NCBI GenBank assembly: GCA_944363605.1
Contig: CALVUM010000030.1
Location: 1-38,163, forward strand
From: an uncultured Bacilli bacterium
Lineage (GTDB): Bacteria; Bacillota_I; Bacilli_A; RF39; UBA660
DNA: 38,163 bases
Reading direction: 5' to 3'
In this document: one piece after another, positions 3,846 to 36,205 of the stretch
Layout of the letters: every line of letters begins with the position of its first letter
How positions within the stretch are numbered: position 1 is the stretch's first letter
Made by a program: the position numbers and the translations under genes
The notes under the pieces: model-generated
Told to the model about the DNA's origin: nothing
Databases searched by the model: none
Seen by the model: only the letters and a program-made list of their open reading frames with translations

Positions 3846-5223
3846 AAAACGGTTTTCTAGTATAAAAGCGAAAACGTTAATTTATTTAATTGCCTTTAGT
3901 GTATCAATATTACTTGTCTTATGGTTTTGCCAAATTGTTTTTTTAAAATATTCTTATCAAGATTATCAAATTCAAAATATGAATCAACTTGCTTTAAGTA
4001 TCCAAAGATCTTCTTTTGTGAATTTAAATAGTACTTTAGAAGAAGTTGCCTATGAAAATGAAGTATGTATCGAATATTATACAGATTCTGGAAATGTATA
4101 TTATTATAACACTATGATGAATGGTTGTGCATTAGGAAAGAATAATCAAGATATCTTAAAAACGGAAAACGCTTTTATGGAATCTAATTTGACTTCTGAT
4201 ACGTATAAAATCATTAATAAGGAATATGAAGTTCGAGCTTTTTTGTATGGAATTAAATTGGATAGTGGTTCTGTGTTTTTATATAGTACTTTGGAAGATG
4301 TAGGTGGAGCCAATGCGGTGTTAAAAAATCAATTAATTTATTTGACTTTTATTGCAATTATCTTTGCTTGTATGATTGCCTATTTTCTTTCCAAAAAAAT
4401 TACTGAACCTATTTTGGATATTACAAAAAAAGCTCAAAAATTAGGCTCTAGCCCAACAGTTAAATTTCCTGACTATGGTGTATTAGAAGTAAATGAACTA
4501 GCACATGTGTTAAGTAATGCTCAAACAGAAATGGTGAAAAATGATGAACTCCGAAGAGATTTGATGGCCAATGTTTCACATGATTTAAAAACGCCTCTAA
4601 CTATGATTAAAGCTTATGCTGAAATGGTACGAGACATTAGTTATCAAGATGAGAAAAAGAGAACAGAACATTGTAATATTATTATGGATGAAGTAGATCG
4701 GTTAAATGTTTTGGTTAATGATATTTTAACTCTTTCAAAGATGCAGGCGAATGCGGATGAAATTCATTTAGAAACTTTTGATTTAGTTAAAGAAATTCAA
4801 ACGATTGTAAAGCGATACGAGATTATTAAGGAAACAGAAAATTATCATTTTGTTTTAGATCTTCCTAATAAAGCTATGGTAAGTGCTGATCAAAAGAAAT
4901 TAAATCAGGTTATTTACAATTTAATTAATAATGCCATTAATTATACGGGACCAGATAAGACGGTTACTGTACGCGTAAAAAAAGAAAAAGATTCCTACTT
5001 AGTAGAAATCATTGATACGGGTAAAGGAATTAAAAAAGAAGAGATTGATCTTATTTGGGATAAGTACTATAAAAATGATAAAAATCATCAAAGAAATGTA
5101 GTTGGAACAGGTTTAGGTTTATCTATTGTTAAAACTATTTTGGAAAATCATCATTTTAAATATGGTGTAAAATCTGAAAAAAATAAAGGAACAACATTTT
5201 ATTTCTATGTAAAGAAAAAATAA
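3835..5223 (+). CDS. Sensor histidine kinase, partner of the upstream regulator
   Basis: About 462 residues from a TTG start at 3835, which has GGGG seven bases upstream and overlaps the end of the regulator gene; longer starts inside the regulator lack a binding site. It has two membrane segments (near residues 12-35 and 165-185) enclosing an extracellular sensor region of about 130 residues, then a HAMP linker. The phospho-acceptor is H249 in SHDLKTPL. The ATPase domain shows N-box NLINNAINYT, G1 DTGKGIKK and G2 GTGLGLSIV. All catalytic motifs are intact. The extracellular domain resembles no sensor fold I can name, so the signal is unknown. Confidence 0.93.
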   Translation: MNIKKRFSSIKAKTLIYLIAFSVSILLVLWFCQIVFLKYSYQDYQIQNMNQLALSIQRSSFVNLNSTLEEVAYENEVCIEYYTDSGNVYYYNTMMNGCALGKNNQDILKTENAFMESNLTSDTYKIINKEYEVRAFLYGIKLDSGSVFLYSTLEDVGGANAVLKNQLIYLTFIAIIFACMIAYFLSKKITEPILDITKKAQKLGSSPTVKFPDYGVLEVNELAHVLSNAQTEMVKNDELRRDLMANVSHDLKTPLTMIKAYAEMVRDISYQDEKKRTEHCNIIMDEVDRLNVLVNDILTLSKMQANADEIHLETFDLVKEIQTIVKRYEIIKETENYHFVLDLPNKAMVSADQKKLNQVIYNLINNAINYTGPDKTVTVRVKKEKDSYLVEIIDTGKGIKKEEIDLIWDKYYKNDKNHQRNVVGTGLGLSIVKTILENHHFKYGVKSEKNKGTTFYFYVKKK

Positions 5224-19907: not shown

Positions 19908-20744
19908 ATGGAAGAGAAACGATGGGATTCTAGTGTGAATGAATATGAAGAAATATATCAATCTAGTAGTTATAGAAAACAACTGGAATGGGATATGGCT
20001 ATAGGACTACAGCAGGTTGATAACTTGAAGCCTTCTAAATATTTAGAACAAATTAGTGAGAAAAATATTTTAGGAGAATTAACCCTAGAAGAAGTAGAAC
20101 AAAGTTTAAAAGAATATTATATTGAAAAAGAAAATCAAAAGGATATCAATTATAATGAACTAGAATGTGACTTTGTATCTATAAGAATTGTAGAATTGTT
20201 GAGTTTTGATAATTTTGATTTATCAGTCGATTATTTAAGATATATTCATAAATATTTATTTCAAGATGTTTATGAGTATGCAGGAGAGTTTCGAAAAATT
20301 AATTTTTCGAAACACGAAAAAATATTAAATAATGATTCTGTTGCTTACGGAGACTTTAAAACATTAACAGAATCATTAGAATATGATATTAGTTTAGAAA
20401 AAGAGAAAAATTATAAGGAAATGTCTATTGTAGAAGTAATTACAAATATTGCCGATTTTTCTTCTAGTATATGGCAAGTACATCCTTTTAGAGAAGGAAA
20501 TACTAGAACAACAGCAGTTTTTATAGAAAAATATTTAATAAGTTTAGGATATAATGTAGATAACTCATTGTTTAAAGATAAATCAGTATATTTTAGAAAT
20601 GCATTAGTTAGAAGTAATTACTTTAATAATTATTTAAATATTAAGGAAGATAAAAGTTATTTAATTAAATTTTTTGAAAATTTATTGTTAAGTAAAAGTA
20701 ATAATTTGAATTCTGAAGATTTAATTATGAAAGAATTCTTTTAG
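19908..20744 (+). CDS. Fic protein with an N-terminal VbhA-like antitoxin segment
   Basis: A 278-residue protein. The Fic core contains VHPFREGNTRTTAVF, an exact HPFx(D/E)GNxR motif with catalytic His, and the upstream YAGEFRKINFS flap region, so AMP (or other NMP) transfer to protein hydroxyls is expected. Residues about 27-72 (LEWDMAIGLQQVDNLKPS and on to LGELTLEEVEQSLKEYY) look like the VbhA antitoxin domain fused in front, making it self-inhibited. The inhibitory (S/T)xxxE(G/N) helix appears as LxxxDN (D38, N39), so the inhibitory Glu is Asp. No separate antitoxin gene is adjacent. The start has AAGAGG upstream. Its position next to CRISPR suggests a defence or stress role. Confidence 0.8.
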   Translation: MEEKRWDSSVNEYEEIYQSSSYRKQLEWDMAIGLQQVDNLKPSKYLEQISEKNILGELTLEEVEQSLKEYYIEKENQKDINYNELECDFVSIRIVELLSFDNFDLSVDYLRYIHKYLFQDVYEYAGEFRKINFSKHEKILNNDSVAYGDFKTLTESLEYDISLEKEKNYKEMSIVEVITNIADFSSSIWQVHPFREGNTRTTAVFIEKYLISLGYNVDNSLFKDKSVYFRNALVRSNYFNNYLNIKEDKSYLIKFFENLLLSKSNNLNSEDLIMKEFF

Positions 20745-21284: not shown

Positions 21285-22043
21285 TTTTAGATTACACTAT
21301 GTTAAAATTCAAACCATTCCAGATACCTTTTTTGTAAATTTGACACCTATCTTTAAATTACACTATGTTAAAATTCAAACTTTGTCTACTTGTTTAATCA
21401 CCTTAGCTGAATTTGTCTTTAAATTACACTATGTTAAAATTCAAACCAAAAGCTTAATTGTTTCCATTTCTTTTTTCTTGATGTCTTTAAATTACACTAT
21501 GTTAAAATTCAAACCCACACGCTTTGCCAACCCCACCAGCATTTTTTTTACTTTAAATTACACTATGTTAAAATTCAAACTATTAATAATAATGAAATTG
21601 AAAATGAATTTACGAATCTTTAAATTACACTATGTTAAAATTCAAACCCATTTAATCGCACTTTTTATTGCAGAGAATGCCATCTTTAAATTACACTATG
21701 TTAAAATTCAAACTGAGCCTGCAGTGTTTTCTGCAGAGTTTAAATAATCCTTTAAATTACACTATGTTAAAATTCAAACAAGGCAAAGTCAATGTACTAT
21801 CAAAAACAAAATCCACTTTAAATTACACTATGTTAAAATTCAAACTTCTTCAAGAATCTTAGATGTTATTACATTTTAGAGCTTTAAATTACACTATGTT
21901 AAAATTCAAACTAAATACAAGTCAGCAATATTACAGTAGATATGAAACTTTAAATTACACTATGTTAAAATTCAAACATCAGGAAATATAAAGTGTAGGA
22001 TTTCACTAACACTCTTTAAATTACACTATGTTAAAATTCAAAC
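21285..22043 (-). CRISPR. CRISPR array 1: 12 repeats, 11 spacers, read leftward
   Basis: Repeats of 30 bp begin at 21285, 21351, 21417, 21485, 21551, 21618, 21684, 21750, 21816, 21882, 21948 and 22014, with spacers of 36-38 bp. In the direction set by the leader (minus strand) the repeat starts GTTTGAATTTTAACATAG and ends TGTAATTTAAAG, so the likely 8-nt crRNA handle is ATTTAAAG. The leftmost repeat has two changes, as expected for the old, leader-distal end. All 11 spacers appear different. Confidence 0.97.
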
Positions 22044-22183
22044 CCGAAAATTCACAACATTTCAATGAATTTTCATCTAAAATATATCATATAACTACAT
22101 AAAATTCCACAAAATTCTATAATCTATCTATAAATATCTGTCGATCCCCAGTACTTTTTGCAAGATTAACAGTCGACAGACTA
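22044..22183 (-). promoter_or_regulatory. Leader of array 1
   Basis: About 140 bp nearly identical, in inverted orientation, to 30289-30428. It includes an 8-bp inverted repeat TCTGTCGA (22137-22144) / TCGACAGA (22173-22180) placed exactly 93 bp from the first repeat, as in array 2. It should hold the array promoter and the adaptation signals. Confidence 0.85.
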
Positions 22184-22199
22184 GATTGAGTAGAGATTA

Positions 22200-22248
22200 G
22201 TTAGAACGTTTATGTTAGATGTTAATTGTTTTTGTTAGACGTCAATTG
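22200..22248 (+). repeat. Direct repeats upstream of the crRNA-like gene
   Basis: GTTAGATGTTAATTG (22214-22228) and GTTAGACGTCAATTG (22234-22248) differ at two bases and are 20 bp apart. A partial third copy (GTTAGAACGTT) starts at 22200. They lie just upstream of the extended -10 promoter and could be an operator. Confidence 0.5.
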
Positions 22249-22255
22249 AAAAATA

Positions 22256-22264
22256 TGATATACT
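22256..22264 (+). promoter_or_regulatory. Extended -10 promoter of the crRNA-like RNA
   Basis: TG-A-TATACT (22256-22264) matches an extended -10. The -35 is poor. Transcription would begin near 22271, inside the first degenerate repeat but before its hairpin. Confidence 0.55.
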
Positions 22265-22386
22265 TTTTTTGTCGTTGCATAGTGCAATTTAAATTCAATG
22301 TATAAAAAAAGATTTTTTTTATAATCATTACATAGTGTAATTTTTGTTTGATTAATTTCTCATAATTTTATTGAGAAATTTTTTTT
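22265..22386 (+). ncRNA. CreR-like crRNA analogue predicted to repress the cas promoter
   Basis: Repeat-like 1 (22265-22294) and repeat-like 2 (22318-22347) each match 21 of 30 positions of the CRISPR repeat. Both contain CATAGTG, and their stems are perfect (TTGCA-TAG-TGCAA and ATTACA-TAG-TGTAAT). Repeat 1 keeps seven of eight handle bases (ATTTAAAT); repeat 2 keeps the hairpin but not the handle, as expected for a single crRNA-like unit. The 23-nt spacer begins TCAATGTATAAAAAAAGAT. It matches the minus strand of the cas promoter at 16 of the first 19 positions, next to CCT. A terminator closes the unit. Known cas-regulating RNAs act this way with Cascade; the function here is inference. Confidence 0.75.
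22354..22386 (+). terminator. Terminator of the crRNA-like RNA
   Basis: AATTTCTCA (22354-22362) pairs perfectly with TGAGAAATT (22372-22380), followed by a T run to 22386. Confidence 0.9.
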
Positions 22387-22414
22387 ACAAATTTTTACAT
22401 ACAAATTTTTACTA

Positions 22415-22443
22415 TTGACAGTTTTTATGTTTTATTATATATT
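22415..22443 (+). promoter_or_regulatory. Promoter of the cas operon
   Basis: Perfect TTGACA (22415-22420), a 17-bp spacer, and TATATT (22438-22443). The start would be near 22450, with cas6 translation from 22466. Confidence 0.85.
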
Positions 22444-22448
22444 GAAGG
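22427..22448 (-). promoter_or_regulatory. Predicted target of the crRNA-like RNA, with CCT motif
   Basis: On the minus strand, CCT (22448-22446) is followed by TCAATATATAATAAAACAT (22445-22427). This matches the crRNA-like spacer except at positions 6, 12 and 17; beyond position 19 the match ends. The site covers the -10 of the cas promoter. Type I-B systems often use CCN-type PAMs. Confidence 0.65.
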
Positions 22449-22465
22449 TATGAAAGGAGTAAGCT

Positions 22466-23200
22466 ATGAAATTAGAAATTATATGGAAACTGGATGGATA
22501 CCTATTAAATAAAGATTATCGTTCAACTTTTTATTCTTTTTTTAAACAAATTTTGGATGAAGAAGATCATGAAAAGTATTTGGAATTATACGGAAAAAAA
22601 GATGCTAAGGTTAAAAGTTTTTGCTTTTCAATTAAATTAGATAATCCTCATTTTCATTCTGATGACGTTATGGTAAGTAGTGATGTTGTTAAAATGTATA
22701 TTCGAAGTTGTGATGAGATAGAACTTTATCAGTTTTATAATAGTTTTCTACAGGCATATAAGAGTCATAAGTTGTTTCCTATGCATATGAATCAAGCTAG
22801 GATAGTAGGTGTTAAGCTACTTCCATTAAGACCAGCTTCGGCTAAAACATTGTACGTTAAATTTTTAGCGCCGTTAGTGGTAAAAGAACATGATATAGAA
22901 ACAAATAGAACTACTTATTATACATATGAAGATGAAGCATTTTTTGATAATTTGAAAAGTGTAAGCAAAAATATTTCTGAAGTTTTAGGGTATACATTAG
23001 ACTTTGATGGTTTTGAAATAATTCCTGTAAATCCAGAAAAAACAGTTGTTTCTGTGTATAGCATTCAGATACCAGTTAGTATGGGAAGCTATATTTTAAA
23101 AGGAAATGAAGATTTGTTAAATTTCTTGTACAATAAAGGTATGGGATATTTAACGTCAAGTGGATTCGGGGTTTTTGAGATATTAGGAAAGGAGCAGTAA
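22466..23200 (+). CDS. cas6: Cas6 pre-crRNA endoribonuclease
   Basis: A 244-residue protein with the RAMP-type ferredoxin fold. The C-terminal glycine-rich loop GMGYLTSSGFGVFEI (about residues 225-239) is characteristic of Cas6. It cleaves at the base of each repeat hairpin to give crRNAs with an 8-nt 5' handle, and should also process the crRNA-like RNA just upstream. The start follows GAAAGGAG. Its TAA overlaps the ATG of cas8 by one base (TAATG). It is the first gene of the eight-gene cas operon, immediately behind the proposed self-targeted promoter. Confidence 0.93.
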   Translation: MKLEIIWKLDGYLLNKDYRSTFYSFFKQILDEEDHEKYLELYGKKDAKVKSFCFSIKLDNPHFHSDDVMVSSDVVKMYIRSCDEIELYQFYNSFLQAYKSHKLFPMHMNQARIVGVKLLPLRPASAKTLYVKFLAPLVVKEHDIETNRTTYYTYEDEAFFDNLKSVSKNISEVLGYTLDFDGFEIIPVNPEKTVVSVYSIQIPVSMGSYILKGNEDLLNFLYNKGMGYLTSSGFGVFEILGKEQ

Positions 23201-24848
23201 TGAAAGAGGAAGTTGTATTCGACTTAGGTAGCTTTGAAACGAATGCAGGTATTTTAGGATTGATTCGAATGCTTGAATTTGATAAGGAACATAGCGCAGG
23301 TAAGTATCATTATAAAGGCGAAGAATCTTTGACAGTTGATAAAGAATATTTGATGAGTACAGATTTAACGGAACTTTTTATGAAAACGTTAATTTCGTTA
23401 GAAGAAAATACTGGTAAATATCCAAAACTCTTATCTGAATTAAAACGATTTTACGATATTTTGCTTGAACGAGATTTAGAGAAGGAAGAAAGAAAAAAAC
23501 TTGGAGAATGTCTAGATTCTTTATGTGCAAATAGTTACAAGGGTGCATATGTTGTTTTAAAAGAAAAATACTCTTATCAAGATGATTTATATGAACTTAT
23601 TAAGTCTTTGAAAAATGAAAAAGATAGGGAAAAGCAACTAGAACTTTTGAAAACAATTTTAGAGATTTTGAATGATACGGAAATCTATGATACTTTATTT
23701 TTTCGTGAACTTGTGTATAGTCGAATAAATAAGTTTTGGGATGGAGTAAGTTTTTTAAATCGAAATAATGCTAAAAAGGAAATGAAACTTATTCATTACG
23801 AAACTTTTGAGAAAGGTTTTAAAGAATATTTGAACTCGTCTTCAAAAAAAGTAGCAATTTGTGAAGAGTGTGGGGAGCCAATTGGCACAACTGAGAAAAT
23901 AGATTATGGTTTTTTGAAAGGAACTACTGCTGATACTTCAAGAAAACGGAATGACTTTTGGAACTATAAAGTCAATTCATGGGTTTGTCCAAAATGTGCA
24001 TTCTTATTTTCCTTAATGCCTTTAGGATTTCAAAAAAATCGAACACATTATTTATTTGTGAACGTTAATCATAATGTAGGCGATATGGTCAAGGCGAATC
24101 TAGAAAAAATTGTTGATGAAAATAAGGATGCTGTTGAATTATATCATGAAGCTTTACTTGATTTCGTTCAGCAAGAAACAAAAGTTTTGGATAATATTGA
24201 AGTTATCGAAGCGGGAGTATATGAAAAAAGATATCGAGTTAATGTGATTCAAAAAGAAGCCTTGGAAATTATAAAAAAAAGCGAAGAAAATTTAAAAAAA
24301 CTTTTAGGGTGCTATGATATAAAAGTCGATAATGGCTATCTTAACTTATATAATGAAGTTATAGGTAACATTGTGGGATTTAGAGATAATTATTCTTTAA
24401 TTTATTTGATTTTAAAACAAGGATTAGCAGATGGAAAATCTATTTATCCGGCATGGCTTATTTTGAAAATTCAATATCAGATTTCGTTAAAAAGAAAAGG
24501 AAGTGATTTAGAAATGAAAAATGATTTAGATACAGCACAATGGTTAGGAGAACAATTAAGGCTTGCTATTTTTAAAGCAAAGCAAACGAATGACCCAAAG
24601 GTACTTAATTCATTATGCTATAAGCTTTTAAATGCTATACATATTAATGATTTAGATACTTTTGTAAACATGGTTCTTAGGGCGTGTAAGAGCTATGAAG
24701 CAACTGTTCCTGTTTTATTTATGCAGGCTTTAAAAAATCATGAGAATTTTAATGATTTAGCTCATGCATATCTTATGGGATTGATGTATGATAAAAAATA
24801 CGATAAAAAAGAAACTATGGAAAATGTAGAAAAAGGAGTGGATAATAT

Positions 24849-24852
<4 letters not shown>
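23200..24852 (+). CDS. cas8: Cascade large subunit Cas8, Cst1-like with zinc ribbon
   Basis: A 550-residue protein with two zinc-binding pairs, CEEC (Cys221 and 224) and CPKC (Cys263 and 266), the CXXC-CXXC pattern of Cst1-type Cas8 from the Tneap variant of type I-B. The rest is helical and divergent, as usual for Cas8. It should recognise the PAM and hold the crRNA 5' handle. It overlaps cas7 by four bases (ATGA). Assignment rests on the zinc motif, size and position between cas6 and cas7. Confidence 0.87.
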
Positions 24853-26397
<1,545 letters not shown>

Positions 26398-26400
26398 ATT

Positions 26401-28542
26401 ATGAAAGATTATTTAAGAGTCGGAAAAATTTATGATGATACTTTTTTAGCGAAGGAAGATGAGTCTTTACGTGTGCATACAAATAATGTTTTAGAGAAAG
26501 CTTCAGAGCTTATTCATATTTACGGACATTGTTTCACGGATAAAGAAAAGACTCTTCTTTTGCTTGCTTGTGAAGTTCATGATTATGGTAAAGTTAATGC
26601 TTTATTTCAACAAAAGATAAGAGAGCATAAAAAACAAATAAATGGCGAGGTTTATCACAATTTTTTAAGTCCTCTTTTTTTGGATTTTGGAAAATTGAGT
26701 TGTGATTTTGATAAGACAGATATTAATAATTTAGTCACGGCTGTGTTTTATCATCATACTAGAGATTTTAAACAGGCTATACTAAATGTTGAGTATTTTG
26801 AAAAATATTTAAAAGAGAATATTAAAAAGTGTTTTCATACAGATTTAACTTGGCAAGGTTATTTGGGTAGGGTTTTATTTATGTATCCTAATGTCTCTGC
26901 TCGAAGTAATTTTGATTGGACAGGTTATGCTAAGTTAAAAGGACTTTTACAAAAGTGTGATTATGCTGCTAGTGCGCATGTCGAGGTTACCGAGATTTAT
27001 CATCGAGAAAGTAGAGAGATATTTTTACAAAACATTCATGAAAAAATACCTACATTACGGGTATTTCAGAAGTATTTAGAAGAGAATCAAGATAAGAATA
27101 TTGTCGCAGTAGCGCCGACAGGTTCAGGAAAAACGGAAGGTTCTTTTCTTTGGCTTGGCAAGGAGAAGGGCTTTTATACGTTACCTTTAAAAGTTGCATC
27201 GAATGCAATTTATAAGAGAGCTAGGGAATTATATGGCTATGATGAAGTTTCATTACTTCATTCAAGTGCTTTAGATATTCTTATGGAAGAAGGGCTTGAG
27301 GGTCGCTTTGAAATTACTAAAAATTTAGGATATCCGCTTACTATTACCACAGTAGATCAGTTGTTCAAATTTACTTTTAAAGCTCTTGGCCATGAAATTT
27401 TATTTGCAACTTTAACTTATGCGAAGGTTGTTATTGATGAAATTCAAATGTATTCTTCGACGATTTTGGCTTGTTTACTGGTTGGTCTTGGATATCTTGT
27501 TAAGCAAGGTGGAAAGTTTTTGATTACAACGGCTACTTTGCCACCTCTTTTTTTAGAATATTTAGATCGTTTCGTTGGGGCAGAAAATTATGAAAAACCA
27601 GCGCCTTTTTTAGAAGTATCAGCTGAGAAACGACATTATATTTTGGTTGTTCCGGATGATTTTCAGTATTCGCTTATTGTAGAACAAGCTTTAAATCATA
27701 AAGTTTTAGTGATTTGTAACACAGTAAAAAGAGCTCAAGAAGTCTATCAAATTTTACGAGAACAAATAGAGAATGTTTATTTACTTCATAGTCGTTTTAT
27801 TAAAAAGGATCGATTTCGGCTTGAAAATGACATTTGCAATTTTGATGGAATTGGCATATGGGTAACAACACAGGTTGTAGAAGCAAGTTTGGATATTGAT
27901 TTTGATATTTTGCATACCGATATGGCTCATATTGATAATTTGTTTCAGCGAATGGGAAGATGTTATCGTAAACGCAATTATGAAGGGGATAAGCCTAATG
28001 TCTATATTTATGATTCGAAAGTTGGATTACGAAAAAAAGGAAGTACTAAAGGAATTTATGATGAAGATATTTATTTAAGCTCGTTAGAGGAATTAATGAA
28101 GTATTCGGATAGTTTTTTAACAGAGAAAATAAAATATAGGATTATCCAAAACATTTACAATCGTGAAGCTTTAAAAGGAACTACATATTTGAATGACTTA
28201 GATAAGAAAATCTACTTGTTAGAAAATAGTTATCCAGGTGAGTATTCGAAAATGGAAGCAGATAATCTATTTAGAGATATTACCAGTTACACTGTAATTC
28301 CGGAGCCTGTTTATGAGGAAAATATTAATTTGTTTCAAGATTTGATGCAACAATATAATCAAGCAAAAGGATTAGATAAACTAAAAATTAAAAACAAAAT
28401 TTTGGATTATTCGGTTGCTGTTCCTTCTTACTATAAACAATTTATTGATAAGAACGAATTATTGCCTGGACTTAGTCGGGCTCGAGTTTTGTATGATGAA
28501 AAGTTAGGTGTCGTTTATGAAGAATACAACAATCAATTTTGA
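26401..28542 (+). CDS. cas3: Cas3 HD nuclease-helicase
   Basis: A 713-residue protein. The N-terminal HD domain has H60-D61 in EVHDYGK and YHHTRDF. The helicase part has Walker A APTGSGKTE (near 239-247), motif II IDEIQMY in place of DEAH, motif III TTATLP, motif V TTQVVEASLDIDFD and motif VI QRMGRCYRKR. It degrades DNA marked by Cascade. All motifs look intact, so interference should be functional. It overlaps cas4 by 26 bases. Confidence 0.95.
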   Translation: MKDYLRVGKIYDDTFLAKEDESLRVHTNNVLEKASELIHIYGHCFTDKEKTLLLLACEVHDYGKVNALFQQKIREHKKQINGEVYHNFLSPLFLDFGKLSCDFDKTDINNLVTAVFYHHTRDFKQAILNVEYFEKYLKENIKKCFHTDLTWQGYLGRVLFMYPNVSARSNFDWTGYAKLKGLLQKCDYAASAHVEVTEIYHRESREIFLQNIHEKIPTLRVFQKYLEENQDKNIVAVAPTGSGKTEGSFLWLGKEKGFYTLPLKVASNAIYKRARELYGYDEVSLLHSSALDILMEEGLEGRFEITKNLGYPLTITTVDQLFKFTFKALGHEILFATLTYAKVVIDEIQMYSSTILACLLVGLGYLVKQGGKFLITTATLPPLFLEYLDRFVGAENYEKPAPFLEVSAEKRHYILVVPDDFQYSLIVEQALNHKVLVICNTVKRAQEVYQILREQIENVYLLHSRFIKKDRFRLENDICNFDGIGIWVTTQVVEASLDIDFDILHTDMAHIDNLFQRMGRCYRKRNYEGDKPNVYIYDSKVGLRKKGSTKGIYDEDIYLSSLEELMKYSDSFLTEKIKYRIIQNIYNREALKGTTYLNDLDKKIYLLENSYPGEYSKMEADNLFRDITSYTVIPEPVYEENINLFQDLMQQYNQAKGLDKLKIKNKILDYSVAVPSYYKQFIDKNELLPGLSRARVLYDEKLGVVYEEYNNQF

Positions 28543-29023
28543 TTTAGGGGGCTTGGCTTTTTCTTATAGTGTGATGTGTCCTAGAAAATTATGGCTATAT
28601 TGTAATCATATCCAATTTGAAAACTTTAATGAGAATGTAAAAATCGGTAAAGAAATAGAAGAAAATTATTATTTGCGAGAAAAAAAGAATGTTTTAATTG
28701 ATGGCATAAATATTGATTTTTTTAAAGATGGTGTTGTTTTTGAAGTGAAAAAAAGTTCTCATTCTAGGGAATTTGCTTTGCTTCAATTAAAGTACTATTT
28801 ATATGTTTTAGAAAAAAAGGGTTTTTCTAATGTGAAAGGTGTACTTAAAATTCCTGAGGAACGAATTACAGAAGAAATAATTTTGGAACCTGATGATGTA
28901 GCTTTTATTGAGAATAAACTGATAGAAGTATCAAAGGTGCTAAGTGGTTCAATTCCTAAGGTAGAGAGGAAAAAGATTTGTAGTAAGTGTGCTTATTATG
29001 AATTTTGTTTTGTAGAAGAATGA
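28517..29023 (+). CDS. cas4: Cas4 adaptation exonuclease
   Basis: About 168 residues. The four cysteines of the Fe-S cluster are visible: one in SYSVMCPRKLW and three in ICSKCAYYEFC near the C-terminus. The nuclease core shows GVVFEVKKSSHS. It trims prespacers and selects PAM orientation for Cas1-Cas2. The ATG at 28517 is preferred over the GTG at 28508 because AGGTG is correctly spaced before it. Its stop TGA overlaps the ATG of cas1. Confidence 0.92.
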   Translation: MKNTTINFDLGGLAFSYSVMCPRKLWLYCNHIQFENFNENVKIGKEIEENYYLREKKNVLIDGINIDFFKDGVVFEVKKSSHSREFALLQLKYYLYVLEKKGFSNVKGVLKIPEERITEEIILEPDDVAFIENKLIEVSKVLSGSIPKVERKKICSKCAYYEFCFVEE

Positions 29024-30011
29024 AAAGTCTTATTATATTTTTAGTAGTGGAGAACTAAAGAGAAGAAATGATTCAATTACTTTAACTAGTGAAGATTTAG
29101 TTAAAAAAAATATACCTGTAGAAAGAATTAAGGATTTACATATTTTTGGGAATGTGACTTATAATTCAAAACTATTTGATTTTGTTTCACAATATGGGAT
29201 TTTAATTCACATGTACAATTATTATGGTTATTATTCAGGGACATTTTATCCTAAAGAAAAGTATGTTTCAGGTAAATTGTTAGTGAAACAAGTGGAAAAC
29301 TATATTGATTTGTCTAAGCGTTTGGTTATTGCCAAAGAGTTTATAGTGTCGGCTAGTTATAATATTCTTCGGAATTTGAAATATTATCAAAATCGAGGAA
29401 AGGATTTACAGGATTATATTGAACGTATAGAAGAGTTTCGAAAGCAAATTTCGGAAACTAATTCTATTGAAGAATTAATGGGAGTTGAAGGTAATATTCG
29501 AAAGGTTTATTATGAGTCTTGGAGTATTATTATTAATCAAGATATTGATTTTGATAAGAGAGTGAAAAGACCTCCTGATAATATGATTAATTCTTTAATT
29601 TCTTTTTTAAATACGATCATTTATACGAAAAATTTGAGTCAAATTTATCAAACTCAATTAAATCCTACTGTTAGTTATTTGCATGAGCCTTCTGATCGAC
29701 GGTTTAGTTTAGCTTTGGATGTATCGGAAATATTTAAACCTTTGATAGTGGATAGAACAATTTTTTCTTTACTGAATCGAAATATAATTTCAGAAGCAGA
29801 TTTTGAGAGTGATTCAAACTTTTTGAAGTTAAAAGATTCAGCTCGAAAAAGGGTACTTCAGGAATTGGGGGAGTGTTTATCAAGGACAATACAACATCGA
29901 AGTATTAAAAGAAAGGTAAGCTATGAGCATCTTATTAAGTTAGAACTTTATAAACTGATTAAATATTTTATTGAAGATGAACCTTATAAAGGGTTTAAGA
30001 TTTGGTGGTAG
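29020..30011 (+). pseudogene. cas1: cas1 with a one-base frameshift at its start
   Basis: The Cas1 frame reads EKSYYIFSSGELKRRN, then VERIKDLHIFGNVTYNSK, GILIHMYNYYGYYSGTFYP, the metal residues in LMGVEGNIRK, YLHEPSDRRF and LALDVSE, to a stop at 30011. The natural ATG at 29020 overlaps cas4 (ATGA), but ATG-AAA-AGT runs into a stop after 12 codons. One extra A would give MKKSYYIFSSGEL and a normal 330-residue Cas1. In-frame alternatives are an ATT at 29037 with a weak ribosome site or a GTG at 29154 that removes about 45 residues. Cas1 is the spacer integrase, so adaptation may be lost. Confidence 0.8.
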
Positions 30012-30012
30012 T

Positions 30013-30291
30013 ATGTATGTTGTTTTAATTTATGATATTAAACAAGTTGGAGATTATCAGAAAGTTTGGCGATTGGTTTATAAGGAATGCAAGAAATATT
30101 TGTATCATGTACAAAATTCTGTTTTTGAGGGAGAGCTATCTAAAAGTCAATTGTTTACACTTAAATTTAAGTTAGAAAAGATATTTCGTAAGGATTTGGA
30201 CTCATGTATCGTTTTTAAATCTAATAATAGTCGTTGGTTAGATAAGGTTTATATTACTGAGCAAAGGAATGATGATTATCAGTTTATTTAG
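30013..30291 (+). CDS. cas2: Cas2 adaptation subunit
   Basis: Ninety-two residues starting MYVVLIYDIKQVG, the normal Cas2 N-terminus with the conserved Asp after strand 1. FEGELSKSQL matches the family's second strand. It bridges two Cas1 dimers for spacer integration. It begins one base after the cas1 stop; longer starts inside cas1 lack support. The TAG stop is the first base of homology shared with the leader of array 1. Confidence 0.93.
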   Translation: MYVVLIYDIKQVGDYQKVWRLVYKECKKYLYHVQNSVFEGELSKSQLFTLKFKLEKIFRKDLDSCIVFKSNNSRWLDKVYITEQRNDDYQFI

Positions 30292-30428
30292 TCTGTCGAC
30301 CGTTAATCTTGCAAAAAGTACTGGAGATCGACAGATGTTTGTGAAAAAGATTATAGGATTTTGTAGAAAATTATGTGGTTCTATGATATATTTTAGATGA
30401 AAATTCATTGAAATGTTATGAATTTTCG
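30292..30428 (+). promoter_or_regulatory. Leader of array 2
   Basis: Inverted near-copy of 22044-22180. It contains TCTGTCGA (30292-30299) and TCGACAGA (30328-30335), exactly 93 bp before the first repeat. A TTGTAG and a TATGAT separated by about 17 bp may be the array promoter. Confidence 0.85.
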
Positions 30429-31183
30429 GTTTGAATTTTAACATAGTGTAATTTAAAGGCATTAAATTAACCAATTCAACCATAAATTCAACAGGTTTGA
30501 ATCTTAACATAGTGTAATTTAAAGGTTCTCACAAAAACGATATCAAAATGCAATATAGAAGTTTGAATCTTAACATAGTGTAATTTAAAGTTTTTTTATT
30601 GATTTCTTCGCAAGCTCTTTGTCTAGGTTTGAATCTTAACATAGTGTAATTTAAAGCTGTATCGGCATCAATCTGCGTAGGGTATTTATAATAAGTTTGA
30701 ATCTTAACATAGTGTAATTTAAAGGGGCTTATGGAAATTGATATTATAAACACTTTAGAGTTTGAATCTTAACATAGTGTAATTTAAAGCTGCTTGAATT
30801 TTAGTTCCCGCAACACTTGCGAAAGTTTTAATCTTAACATAGTGTAATTTAAAGTAATGAATTAGGTACTTTAGACAACCATTCAAACTCGTTTGAATCT
30901 TAACATAGTGTAATTTAAAGGTTAAAGCAGTAATGAAAGCGCTAAAATCAACTACAGTTTGAATCTTAACATAGTGTAATTTAAAGCACGCAAAAAGAAT
31001 ATATTTAAATTATTTTAGAAAAGTTTGAATTTTAACATAGTGTAATTTAAAGTCTTTTTTGATACATATCATCAACTATTTTTTCAGCGTTTGAATCTTA
31101 ACATAGTGTAATTTAAAGAAATTATGTATCGGAATTGTCCCATTTTCATTTTTGGCTGAATCTAAACATAATGTAATATCTAT
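30429..31183 (+). CRISPR. CRISPR array 2: 12 repeats, 11 spacers, read rightward
   Basis: Repeats of 30 bp begin at 30429, 30495, 30561, 30627, 30695, 30760, 30825, 30891, 30957, 31023, 31089 and 31154; spacers are 35-38 bp. Most repeats have GTTTGAATCTTAAC, while the leader-proximal one and that at 31023 have GTTTGAATTTTAAC, as in array 1. The repeat at 30825 has GTTTTAATC. The last repeat is heavily degenerate, marking the distal end. Confidence 0.97.
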
Positions 31184-31389: not shown

Positions 31390-32088
31390 ATGCAAGACAA
31401 AGTAAGGATTACTTCAAAAAAAGTATTACGAGAAAAACGATTAAGAAAAATCTTTCTTATATTAATTGTTCTTCTTTTATTTTTACTTCTTTTGTTCTAT
31501 ATGATTGTCGGTATTGTTTATAATCGTGGAAATTTTAGCATCACGCTAGATAAAAACTTGTACTTCGATAGAGGTCTCATCATGTATGATGATCCTTTAA
31601 ATAAAGAATATAGGCCAACGCTTTATGCAGAAGCTCCTAGTACATTTGATAATATCTCGCAGTACTGGCTTCCAGAAGATATTACGGAATATGGTGGAGG
31701 AAGTCATAATGGCAAGAGTTATTTGGCTTATACTTTTTATGTTGAGAATATAGGTGAGGAGATTCGGGACTATTGGAGTGAAGTGTATATCGAAGACGTT
31801 ACAAGAAACGTCGATGATGCTGTTCGAATTCGAATCTATCGAAATGATGAGTATGTTACTTTTGCTAAGGGAAAGGCAAATGGTGAAGCAGAATCTAATA
31901 CAACAGCTTTTCTAAGTGAAACTTTGGCAGGGCGAATGCACATCGAAAATTCAATGCCTGGAAGTATTGATAAGTTCACTTTGGTAATATGGATAGAAGG
32001 CAGTGACCAAGATTGTACGGACGATATTTTAGGTGGCGAATTCAAAGTCCGATTGAGATTCAATTCAGAATATGTCGAAGAAAACTAA
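31390..32088 (+). CDS. Anchored surface protein, first gene of the TYAWF operon
   Basis: A 232-residue protein. A very basic N-terminus (residues 1-22) and one long membrane helix (about 23-43) are followed by an extracellular beta-rich domain. It lacks the TYAWF motif but its C-terminus (KFTLVIWIEGSDQDCTDD, then FKVRLRFN) matches the terminal element of the next three proteins (VYIWLEGQD and later strands), so it belongs to the same system. It may be an assembly or anchoring partner. It starts at an ATG after AGGGAAG and is followed after 18 bases by the first large paralogue. Confidence 0.7.
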   Translation: MQDKVRITSKKVLREKRLRKIFLILIVLLLFLLLLFYMIVGIVYNRGNFSITLDKNLYFDRGLIMYDDPLNKEYRPTLYAEAPSTFDNISQYWLPEDITEYGGGSHNGKSYLAYTFYVENIGEEIRDYWSEVYIEDVTRNVDDAVRIRIYRNDEYVTFAKGKANGEAESNTTAFLSETLAGRMHIENSMPGSIDKFTLVIWIEGSDQDCTDDILGGEFKVRLRFNSEYVEEN

Positions 32089-32106
32089 GAAGGGAAGAGG
32101 TAAAGA

Positions 32107-33519
32107 ATGACAAAAAGAAATAATAAGCATGAAAAAAGACTTAGAATGCTTATTTTAGCTGTAGTAGTTTGTACTTTTATTTTAGGCGCATCTACTTATG
32201 CATGGTTCATTGGAATGCGAACTGTTAATGTTTCTAGTTTTGATGTTAGTATTGCTACAACTGAGAGTTTAATGCTTTCAATCGATGGAAAAACATGGAC
32301 AGAAAATTTAACAATTAATGGCGAAAACTATAATACTGCTGCTTATACTGGCAATACAAATAGCTGGGGTGGCGAAGATGGTTTAATTCCAATGAGTAGT
32401 ATTGGAAAAATTGACACTGCCGCATCAAGAATGATTTTATTTGAAAAAGGAAGCTTTACTGCATCTGATGGCGGATACCGTTTAATGGCTAGTCAAGTTA
32501 AAAATGGCGAAGCTGATGGTGGCGAAGCTGATGGTTATGTTGCTTTTGATTTATTCATTCGTAACATGTCAGGAAATGAATATTATGAAGAAGTTGATTT
32601 CTTAAATGAAGAGGCAATTTATCTAACACCTGGTTCTTCTGTTAAAGTTTCAGGAGCTGGAGCTGATAAAGAAAAAACCGGTATTGAAAATTCAGTACGT
32701 GTTGCTTTCATGCAAGTTGGTCGTGTAAAATCTGATGTAGCTGAGGGAGATATTACAGGAATTACCTGTACAGATGAAGGAGCTGTTTTAGGTATTTGTG
32801 ATGATCGTGATGCAACTATTTGGGAACCAAATGATACACAACACGTAGATAATGCAATTAATTGGTATAATACGGCTTGTAAGAAAAGAACAGGGGCTAC
32901 TTTAACTGCGGATGATGCTTATACAGCTGAAGCATGTAATGCAGTAGTTAATGGTACATATTCTAAAACTTATGCTGTTAGTGGAGTTATTGATTATACA
33001 AATAACGTAGATAATTACGATGGAATTGAATACAATGGATATACAGGTTCAATTGCTAGTGAGGCAGCTGCTGGTAAATTAGTTGGTGTTGATACATTTA
33101 CGGATTCAGAAAAAAATTTACAAAGTACAGCTCGTCCTGAATTTATTCGTTTAGCGCCTAATAGTATTACGAAAGTACGTGTATATATCTGGCTTGAAGG
33201 TCAAGATGTTGATAATTATGATTTTGCTCAATTAGGACGTCAAATTTCAGTTAATTTCGGATTTACGAAAGAAAGATTCTATGGTGAAGATATTGATTAT
33301 GAAGGACCAGAACTTCCAGATGATGTTCAAAAAGATATAGCTACACAAGCATATTCAGCAGAAGATACAGTTGAATTTATTTCTGATAGCTATGTAACTT
33401 ATGCTGATGGTAATTTCAGTATTCCAAGTTGGATTACAACATTCTCATTTAAAGATGGCGATAAGAGAGTATTAGCAACTAAGAGTGTTGACACTTGGAC
33501 ATTTAATGATATAGATTAA
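32107..33519 (+). CDS. TYAWF-motif surface protein, paralogue A
   Basis: A 470-residue protein. A basic tail and one membrane segment end in ASTYAWFIGMRTVNVSSFDV, followed by an extracellular domain with TESLMLSIDGKTW, VAFDLFIRNMSG and the C-terminal RLAPNSITKVRVYIWLEGQD. Extracellular Cys residues are present (for example ITCTDE and NTACKKR). The membrane-proximal motif resembles that of TasA/camelysin fibre proteins, but a long uncleaved anchor is possible. It is a clear tandem paralogue of the next gene, including a stretch of about 36 identical bases near 33150. Frequent CGT and GCT codons suggest high expression. A structural surface role is inference. Confidence 0.8.
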   Translation: MTKRNNKHEKRLRMLILAVVVCTFILGASTYAWFIGMRTVNVSSFDVSIATTESLMLSIDGKTWTENLTINGENYNTAAYTGNTNSWGGEDGLIPMSSIGKIDTAASRMILFEKGSFTASDGGYRLMASQVKNGEADGGEADGYVAFDLFIRNMSGNEYYEEVDFLNEEAIYLTPGSSVKVSGAGADKEKTGIENSVRVAFMQVGRVKSDVAEGDITGITCTDEGAVLGICDDRDATIWEPNDTQHVDNAINWYNTACKKRTGATLTADDAYTAEACNAVVNGTYSKTYAVSGVIDYTNNVDNYDGIEYNGYTGSIASEAAAGKLVGVDTFTDSEKNLQSTARPEFIRLAPNSITKVRVYIWLEGQDVDNYDFAQLGRQISVNFGFTKERFYGEDIDYEGPELPDDVQKDIATQAYSAEDTVEFISDSYVTYADGNFSIPSWITTFSFKDGDKRVLATKSVDTWTFNDID

Positions 33520-33538
33520 AATATAGAAAGGGTAAAAA

Positions 33539-35035
33539 ATGAAAAAACACAATGAAAAACATAGTAAGAAAATAAGAAATTTAGTGGTTATTTGTTTATT
33601 GTGTGGAATCGTTTTAGCAGCTTCAACGTATGCATGGTTTATTGGAATGAGAACTGTTAACGTTTCTAGTTTCGATATTAATATTGCATCAACTGAAGGT
33701 CTATACTTATCCATGGATGGTGAGAGTTGGACATATAATCTTGATGTTGCTAATGCACCACAATATGCTAATAACGCGAATAAACTTGCTGATGTTGAAT
33801 TAATTCCAATGAGTAGTGTTGGAGATATGGATAAAACTTCATCAAGAATGAAACTTTATGAAAAAGGTAGTTTAACTGCAACTAAAGGTGGTTACCGATT
33901 ACTTGCTAGTCAAGTAAATAACTATACAAACAAAGTTGCAGATACTAATGAATATATTGAAGGTGACGGTTACGTAGCATTTGATTTATTTATTAAAAAT
34001 TTATCTGGCGAAGAATATTATGTAGAAAATAATCCATTAAATGAAGAAGCAATTTATTTAACTACAAATTCTTCTGTAACTGTTGCAGAAGCTGGCGGAG
34101 TTCCTAACACAGGAATTGAAAACTCTATTCGGGTTGCTTTTGCACAAATCGGACGTGTTGAAGCTAATACAGAAAATGTTTCAAATATTACAAAGATTAC
34201 TTGTTCTGATGTAGCTGCTACTGATGATCAAGTTCAAGTAACGGGTATTTGTCGTAGTGCTCAAATTTGGGAGCCAAATGATAAAGCACACGTTCAAAAT
34301 GCTATAAATTGGTATAACACAGCTTGCGATAAGAGAACAAGTGATGATGTAAATGCAGACGCGTCTTATGCAGATCGTGCTGAAGATGCTGAAGATACGA
34401 CAACATGTAATGCTATTACAAACGGAACTGCTTCTGCTACTTATGCAATAAGTCGTGAAATCATTGTTGGAGACAACGTTAATATTTATGACGGAACAGC
34501 TTATAATACTTATGCAAAAAATACAATTGATTATGCTACTTATATTGCTGCTGAAGAGGATGCTAGAGATGGCTATAAATTAGTTGAATATCCATACTTT
34601 ACAGATACAATGAAAGCTTTAACAGGAATAGATCGTCCACAATTTATGACATTAGCGCCTAATAGTATTACGAAAGTACGTGTATATGTTTTCTTAGAAG
34701 GTCAAGATATTGATAATTATGACTTCGCTCAATTAGGAGCAAAGATTTCTGTTAATTTTGGATTCACGAAAGAAAGATTTACTGAAAATGATGTTAACCA
34801 TGAAGGTCCATCTACAGATATTACTGAAGGCATGACTTATTATAATGCTGTTGGAGATGTAGTAGTTACAACACCAGATTCAGGAATCACTTATAACGCA
34901 GATACTCATTACTTTGTTATTCCAGCTGAATTTAAAAATAACTTTACATTTACAGATGATGGAACAACTTATACAGCAACTTATTCATTAGTTGATGGTA
35001 ATGATACTTGGACAATTGCTAAACAAACGCCTTAG
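33539..35035 (+). CDS. TYAWF-motif surface protein, paralogue B
   Basis: A 498-residue protein with the same order of elements as its upstream neighbour: membrane segment ending in ASTYAWFIGMRTVNVSSFDI, TEGLYLSMDGESW, VAFDLFIKNLSGEEYY, EPNDKAHVQNAINWYNTAC, and TLAPNSITKVRVYVFLEGQD. It has an Asp/Ala-rich insertion around residues 265-290 and an extra C-terminal beta-like segment. A hairpin terminator after it (35041-35082) may reduce transcription of the last three genes, giving the two large proteins a stoichiometric excess. The start has AAAGGGT upstream. Confidence 0.8.
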   Translation: MKKHNEKHSKKIRNLVVICLLCGIVLAASTYAWFIGMRTVNVSSFDINIASTEGLYLSMDGESWTYNLDVANAPQYANNANKLADVELIPMSSVGDMDKTSSRMKLYEKGSLTATKGGYRLLASQVNNYTNKVADTNEYIEGDGYVAFDLFIKNLSGEEYYVENNPLNEEAIYLTTNSSVTVAEAGGVPNTGIENSIRVAFAQIGRVEANTENVSNITKITCSDVAATDDQVQVTGICRSAQIWEPNDKAHVQNAINWYNTACDKRTSDDVNADASYADRAEDAEDTTTCNAITNGTASATYAISREIIVGDNVNIYDGTAYNTYAKNTIDYATYIAAEEDARDGYKLVEYPYFTDTMKALTGIDRPQFMTLAPNSITKVRVYVFLEGQDIDNYDFAQLGAKISVNFGFTKERFTENDVNHEGPSTDITEGMTYYNAVGDVVVTTPDSGITYNADTHYFVIPAEFKNNFTFTDDGTTYTATYSLVDGNDTWTIAKQTP

Positions 35036-35040
35036 TAAAA

Positions 35041-35082
35041 AAAGAGGAGTAAGGCAAGAAAGTTTCCTTACTCTTTCTTTTA
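35041..35082 (+). terminator. Internal terminator in the surface operon
   Basis: AAAGAGGAGTAAGG pairs with CCTTACTCTTT (one bulge), followed by CTTTT. It lies between paralogues B and C and is probably partial. Confidence 0.65.
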
Positions 35083-35104
35083 ATCCATTAAAGGGGTGAG
35101 AAAT

Positions 35105-36205
35105 ATTACAAAGAATACCGCAAAGAAAAAAAGTATAGGTTCTAAGAAAAATACCCAAACTAAAGAAAGGTTTAGAGATAAAAAAAACTTTAAACTGACT
35201 ATTGCGTTAATTGTACTTTTTGGATTATTGTTTATTTTTTCAACTTATGCTTGGTTCTCATCAAGTTTAAATGTTCAAGTGCGTACGTTTAATGTTGTAG
35301 TAGATCGAACAAGTGGACTTTTCATTTCTTTAGATGGAATAAATTTCGATAGTTCTGTAGAAATTAATTTAAATACAGTAATTCGTGATTTACGGGCAAC
35401 TTATCCTAATCATACAAATCAATGGGCAACTAATGGTCTTACACCTGTCTCTTCTAATGGAATTACAGATTCTAATAGTCCAGAGTTTAATATGTTCGCG
35501 AGCAATGGAGTTTTGTATTACAAAAGAGATCAAAATCGCGAGAATGGTTTTGTAACAACGGAGCAAATTGTAGAAACAGAACCTAAAGAGTATGCTTATT
35601 ATATTGCCTTTGATTTATTTTTTCAAAACATTACCGGTTCGCCTGTAAGTGATAATCTTTATTTAGATTATAGTTCTTCTTTTATTATGAATGCGGATGC
35701 TTCTGAAGAAATGCAAGGACTTGGGAATTCCGTACGTTTTGGAATAGTACGAATTGGCAGTACCAGTAATAACTCACCAGCTAATGTTGTTCAAAACATT
35801 TCTTGTAATGGACAATGTGAATCTATAATTTATGAGCCAAATAGCCGAAATCATACAAATTTGTCTATTGAAAGGGCAAGTAAATATGGCGTGAATTTAG
35901 TAAATGGCGAGCGTTTTTCCACTTATGCTTTTCAAAGAGCAGGTGGACCAATATATGTAAAAAATACTGTATCTGGTTCAGAGAATTTAGATTTAAATTA
36001 CTTTAGTTTACAAAATACTATTACTGAAGAAAATTTAGATGAACCACTTTTTCAAGTTCCAGATGGGATTACTAAAACACGGGTTTATTTGTGGATTGAA
36101 GGACAAGATATTGATAGTTTAGAAACAGAGTCTGAAGGAGCAGAATTAACAGTTTCAATAAACTTTACAAAAGATACTTTAGGATATAATACTTTTGATG
36201 AATAA
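35105..36205 (+). CDS. TYAWF-motif surface protein, paralogue C; probable ATT start
   Basis: About 366 residues. After a basic N-terminus and one membrane segment (LTIALIVLFGLLFIFSTYAWF) it has RTFNVVVDRTSGLFISLDG, YIAFDLFFQNITG and the terminal ITKTRVYLWIEGQDIDS, so it is a diverged third paralogue with a shorter middle. The only canonical start, GTG at 35096, lies inside the AAGGGGTGAG ribosome site. ATT at 35105 is spaced eight bases from it and gives TKNTAKKKS after the initiator, similar to MTKRNNK of paralogue A. I therefore prefer ATT. Surface location is by family resemblance. Confidence 0.75.
   Translation: MTKNTAKKKSIGSKKNTQTKERFRDKKNFKLTIALIVLFGLLFIFSTYAWFSSSLNVQVRTFNVVVDRTSGLFISLDGINFDSSVEINLNTVIRDLRATYPNHTNQWATNGLTPVSSNGITDSNSPEFNMFASNGVLYYKRDQNRENGFVTTEQIVETEPKEYAYYIAFDLFFQNITGSPVSDNLYLDYSSSFIMNADASEEMQGLGNSVRFGIVRIGSTSNNSPANVVQNISCNGQCESIIYEPNSRNHTNLSIERASKYGVNLVNGERFSTYAFQRAGGPIYVKNTVSGSENLDLNYFSLQNTITEENLDEPLFQVPDGITKTRVYLWIEGQDIDSLETESEGAELTVSINFTKDTLGYNTFDE

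Follow-up and report, generated by a model that had tools for sequence, protein, structure and literature searches.

Closest Described Systems and the Type I-B Locus

Autorepression by CreR has been reported for cas promoters of types I-B, I-E, and V-A, and this repression is lifted by competing crRNAs or by the action of anti-CRISPRs (PMC12737573, PMC13131331). As presented in these two papers, which cite it, the CreR of Liu et al. (2023) is a crRNA-like RNA encoded by a modulatory mini-CRISPR next to the cas genes and complementary, to a limited extent, to a PAM-flanked target in the cas promoter; the unit that we describe here is like it in these respects. CreA of the CreTA modules, from the type I-B systems of Haloarcula hispanica and Halobacterium hubeiense (PMC8501985, PMC9458426), shares with our unit the psiR1-guide-psiR2 order and the degenerate repeats, the seed at positions 1-5 and 7-11 with positions 6 and 12 free, and repression by Cascade (demonstrated for CreA, proposed for the unit here); however, CreA represses a toxin RNA and not cas, and its PAM is TTC, whereas ours would be CCN. 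For repression, haloarchaeal CreA needs to pair at positions 1-5 and 7-11 only; altering 6 or 12 does no harm (PMC8501985). In a Bacillota type I-B system complementarity below about 26 nt leads to repression and above it to cleavage (PMC10551041), and CCN PAMs are functional in the I-B system of C. difficile (PMC8406132).

The window (the whole stretch analysed, 38,163 nucleotides) comes from a MAG of 1.52 Mb that is only 69.5% complete. It contains a complete type I-B operon, cas6-cas8b-cas7-cas5-cas3-cas4-cas1-cas2, at 22466-30291 on the forward strand: cas6 (22466-23200; TIGR01877), a cas8b-like gene (23200-24852; Pfam Cas_CXXC_CXXC), cas7 of the Cst2/DevR type I-B kind (24849-25727), cas5 (25708-26397), cas3 (26401-28542), cas4 (28508-29023), a type I-B cas1 (29154-30011), and cas2 (29971-30291). 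The true start of cas1 is probably upstream of the annotated one, since the Cas1 proteins of relatives have 335 aa. One CRISPR array lies on each side of the operon, both transcribed outward from it: array 1 (21285-22043, reverse strand) runs leftward with 12 repeats of 30 nt and spacers mostly of 36 nt, and its leader (22044-22186, reverse strand) is 89% identical to the leader of array 2 (30286-30432, opposite strand); array 2 itself is at 30429-31118 (forward strand). A gene for a Fic-domain protein, related to VbhT/Fic adenylyltransferases, adjoins array 1 (19908-20744). Further downstream, 31390-36205 holds a series of surface-protein-type genes (repeats D6-D12), at least three in number, which are related to each other and probably tandem duplications.

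Between the array 1 leader and the cas promoter we find a probable creR unit (22256-22386), which consists of a degenerate repeat pair, a spacer, and an A/T-rich terminator. Of the features of CreR, repeat-like elements beside cas, a retained handle, and a limited match next to a CCT are found in the window, and guide-target co-variation is found among related loci. CreR being already published, the novelty is a new member and not a new kind; this probable member belongs to a new host lineage (uncultured Bacilli) and has a sequence of its own. A natural short-match guide that directs an effector to its own promoter is also found in type II systems, where tracr-L reportedly autorepresses Cas9 (work of Workman et al. 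in 2021). The logic of tracr-L is the same as that of our unit, but it is derived from tracrRNA and acts with a single-protein effector.

A Mini-CRISPR Unit Upstream of cas6

The two degenerate repeats, psiR1 (22265-22294) and psiR2 (22318-22347), lie on the forward strand around a 23-nt guide (22295-22317). Each matches the array 2 repeat at 21 of 30 positions, as the preliminary description had it for the CRISPR repeat, and the array 1 repeat at 20 of 30. A single match of 21/30 is not rare, having been seen in 29 of 1000 shuffles of the A/T-rich intergenic region; a same-strand pair 45-75 nt apart was seen in none of 1000. Across the 1.52-Mb genome there are 24 copies of the repeat core CATAGTGYAATTT, of which 22 belong to array repeats and one to each psiR; the reversed core, used as a control, is absent. 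psiR1 keeps the 5′ handle ATTTAAAT, which agrees with the repeat of its own genome at seven of eight positions and with the repeats of two same-genus genomes (G009 and G012) at all eight; the handle of psiR2 is lost, so the earlier account of the handles stands. Since the array repeats of the window's genome end in ATTTAAAG and those of G009 and G012 in ATTTAAAT, psiR1 may preserve an older form of the repeat. The hairpin had been said to be kept in both repeats, and indeed a TAG-loop hairpin is predicted in each, folding more cleanly than in the array repeat. The unit is closed, as proposed, by an intrinsic-terminator-like element (22354-22386, forward strand), with a 9-bp stem at 22354-22380 followed by a T run (-7.7 kcal/mol; z = -3.7 in folding); its A/T-rich composition is why a simple terminator scan did not pick it up.

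The start of the unit is less distinctive. The preliminary description placed an extended -10 promoter here, and the motif TG.TATACT is present at 22256-22264, as part of a candidate creR promoter TAGACG-17-TATACT (22236-22264, forward strand; TG before the -10); by itself this candidate is no more than expected by chance, promoter-like sites in this stretch being no commoner than in shuffles. Three GTTAGA motifs precede it (at 22200, 22214, and 22234, the last two as GTTAGAYGTYAATTG; 22200-22248, strand unassigned), and possibly serve as an operator for some regulator. No Rfam family matched 22000-22520, no DNA match was found in a plasmid search, and no second copy of the unit was found elsewhere in the genome. 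A 21-nt C75 match, considered as a second copy, spans only the promoter and the start of psiR1 and lacks the repeat core, and was set aside as chance.

The Guide Matches the cas Promoter

The unit is followed on its 3′ side by the cas promoter, a ribosome-binding site, and cas6. The cas promoter is strong (TTGACA-17-TATATT, 11/12; 22415-22443, forward strand). We confirmed that the guide fits the minus strand of this promoter at 16 of 19 positions (target 22427-22445, reverse strand) directly after a putative CCT PAM (22446-22448, reverse strand), and that two of the three mismatches are at positions 6 and 12; the third is at 17, so that nucleotides 1-16 of the guide fit except at 6 and 12. 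No other site on either strand of the window fits the guide as well; the shuffle p is about 0.001 for the match alone and no higher than 0.001 when the PAM is required too. If positions 6 and 12 are left free, this site is the sole exact CCN-flanked match in the 1.52-Mb genome. The target lies over the -10 of the cas promoter, upstream of the expected transcription start (about 22450, about 16 nt ahead of the cas6 ATG), and an R-loop of full length would span 22410-22448, taking in both the -35 and the -10.

We also looked at the array spacers. None of those in the window or in G009 fits the cas promoter as an alternative guide. Five scans of viral contigs with five of the window's array spacers, every sixth position being free, gave no matches from which a PAM could be derived, and the arrays of two other loci (L049 and L024) gave only low-identity matches to phage genomes, unusable for the same purpose.

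Guides and Targets Co-vary Across Type I-B Loci

The comparison comprised 75 type I-B loci: the window and 74 loci found with a Cas7 alignment in named genomes. A scan of the genome contigs with a single Cas6 sequence gave no match, and class- and phylum-wide genome searches yielded few extra loci. Outside the arrays, we searched each locus for an 8-nt handle with a guide behind it that fits, at its read positions, a site near the cas operon. A strict cut-off, which called for a CCN flank and at least 14 of the 15 read positions (1-17 minus 6 and 12), was passed by 12 of the 75 loci, as against 0.15 in shuffled sequence; every PAM dinucleotide other than CC gave zero or one locus at this cut-off.

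When selection was by the seed only (positions 1-5 and 7-11 matching at a CCN-flanked site near the cas operon), about a quarter of the loci were found, 17 of 75, all with an 8/8 handle (the window, L017, L034, L042, L052, L057, L062, L064, L067, L068, L069, L074, L076, L078, L079, L085, and L087), where the background expects about one: CC-flanked pairs make up about 2% of all pairs compared and there are 33 non-CC pairs, therefore about one CC pair would arise by chance. Positions outside the selection are matched in these 17 loci as well: 82% at position 13, 94% at 14, 88% at 15, 71% at 16, and 53% at 17, and from 18 on at the level of chance; positions 6 (53%) and 12 (41%) are near chance, and in the 33 non-CC pairs every position beyond the seed is at chance. 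The mismatch at 17 puts the window's guide among the shorter matches. The described requirement of CreA ends at position 11, whereas the match in the window and its relatives reaches 16-17. A further likely unit (L037) appears at a lower threshold.

The guides vary between species. In 13 units, guides fit their own target at a mean of 14.5 of 15 positions and foreign targets at 8.7; these units were picked for a good own match, so the value of 14.5 is partly due to selection, but selection does not account for the end of the match after 17 or for the tolerance at 6 and 12. The preliminary description proposed a search of relatives for the same unit with co-varying spacer and cas promoter; in 17 of the 75 loci the guide is complementary to its own CCN-flanked site, and this supports the earlier claim that a crRNA-like RNA guides Cascade to the cas promoter. 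Unit anatomy, a unique target, and a guide-target fit kept across species are direct observations.

Most targets lie less than 100 nt from cas6, just upstream of it, where they overlap or adjoin a sigma-70-like promoter. This does not hold for L067, L079, and L087 (210-250 nt upstream of cas6), nor for L074 and L057. In L074 (Peptostreptococcus canis) the psiR-guide-psiR unit (4244-4478) seems to lie within the cas 5′ leader, downstream of one shared promoter, and the target is directly upstream of the -35. In the Tissierella-type loci L067 (4404-4475) and L079 (4380-4463) the site precedes a hydrophobic ORF that is tiny and has a Shine-Dalgarno sequence, and the region in L087 is similar; these units resemble toxin modules of the CreTA type more than they do CreR.

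The same-genus genomes G009 and G012, which share the cas operon, were searched for the unit beside cas6, and it was not found there; thus the unit is not essential and was gained or lost within the genus. A gene for a WYL-domain transcriptional regulator precedes cas6 in 22 of the 75 loci (e.g., L055, 3527-4465, and L048, 3544-4497). We considered whether creR replaces this regulator and dropped the idea, as there is no association (4 of 15 loci with creR vs 17 of 43 without; p = 0.53).

Proposed Function and Alternative Explanations

We consider it highly probable that the unit is a type I-B creR, encoding a crRNA-like RNA that guides Cascade by limited complementarity to repress its own cas promoter. 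Transcription of creR, Cas6 processing, repression of cas, and sensing are what we infer from this arrangement, as follows. Cas6 would cut the short creR transcript in psiR1, and probably in psiR2 too, giving a crRNA-like RNA that starts 5′-AUUUAAAU-UCAAUG. Cascade loaded with this RNA would bind the cas promoter beside CCT, with the RNA paired at positions 1-5, 7-11, and 13-16, and would obstruct RNA polymerase at the -35 and -10. Since the match ends far below the length that Cas3 cleavage requires, the site would be repressed rather than cut. Immune crRNAs would compete with the creR RNA for the same Cas proteins, and an anti-CRISPR that blocks the effector would free the promoter, so cas expression should track free Cascade; for this sensing step we lean on the published work on CreR (PMC12737573, PMC13131331), by analogy with which it is proposed here.

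That the unit is a decayed mini-array remnant, whose spacer has only a chance resemblance to the cas promoter owing to the A/T-rich DNA, is very unlikely. Both repeats are indeed degenerate, the region is very A/T-rich, and two same-genus relatives lack the unit beside cas6; but shuffles give a p of about 0.001 or lower, the promoter is the sole exact CCN-flanked match in the genome, and the comparative data already contradict this reading: the arrangement recurs, with different guides, across 17 of 75 loci, and the match extends to positions that were not selected for. The tolerance at 6 and 12, with its six-base periodicity, and the PAM indicate that it is Cascade that reads the match, and not chance or pairing between RNAs. 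The same signatures, together with the position of the target, make an ordinary antisense small RNA that pairs with the cas mRNA extremely unlikely: the guide RNA is complementary to the plus strand, which is the mRNA sense, but transcription is expected to start at about 22450, downstream of the target (22427-22445), which is hence outside the mRNA.

An addiction module of the CreTA/CrePA type, whose guide silences a toxin instead of the cas genes, has an identical guide anatomy, and in L067 and L079 the matched site, 210-250 nt ahead of cas6, precedes a tiny ORF that has a Shine-Dalgarno sequence. We regard this as very unlikely for the window, where the targeted promoter runs straight into cas6 and, with the expected start only about 16 nt before the ATG, there is no space for a toxin gene.

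The comparative set shows an apparent ceiling of 17 matched positions. It is conceivable, though we hold it as somewhat doubtful, that in this branch of type I-B the self-regulating guides are held to at most 17 nt, in segments 1-5, 7-11, and 13-17 (6, 12, and 18 unread), by selection for firm promoter binding below the length that triggers Cas3, and that many species keep this ceiling, each on its own, as the sequences of guide and promoter drift together. The set and its apparent ceiling are what this analysis adds, and the unit would extend the autorepression of cas by guide RNAs to a lineage of uncultured Bacilli. The set offers about 17 candidate units across Bacillota, each with a predicted guide, PAM, and target, several of them in culturable species (Rummeliibacillus, Agrilactobacillus, Tissierella, and Acetoanaerobium), which makes the minimum match length for repression vs cutting directly testable. 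Such units would couple Cas levels to the expression of immune arrays, and are therefore relevant for editing with native type I-B systems.

Other Features of a Same-Genus Genome

In G012, the type I-B cas6 directly follows an array with 36-nt repeats (GTTTTAGG...GAAAAC) together with a Cas1-like gene that is of a different type (L010, 1115-5599), and the type I-B arrays are on a separate contig (L112). Beside these arrays is a four-gene cluster (L112, 217-8110) that includes a gene for a 1348-aa SMC-like protein, resembling the Wadjet (JetABCD) defence system.
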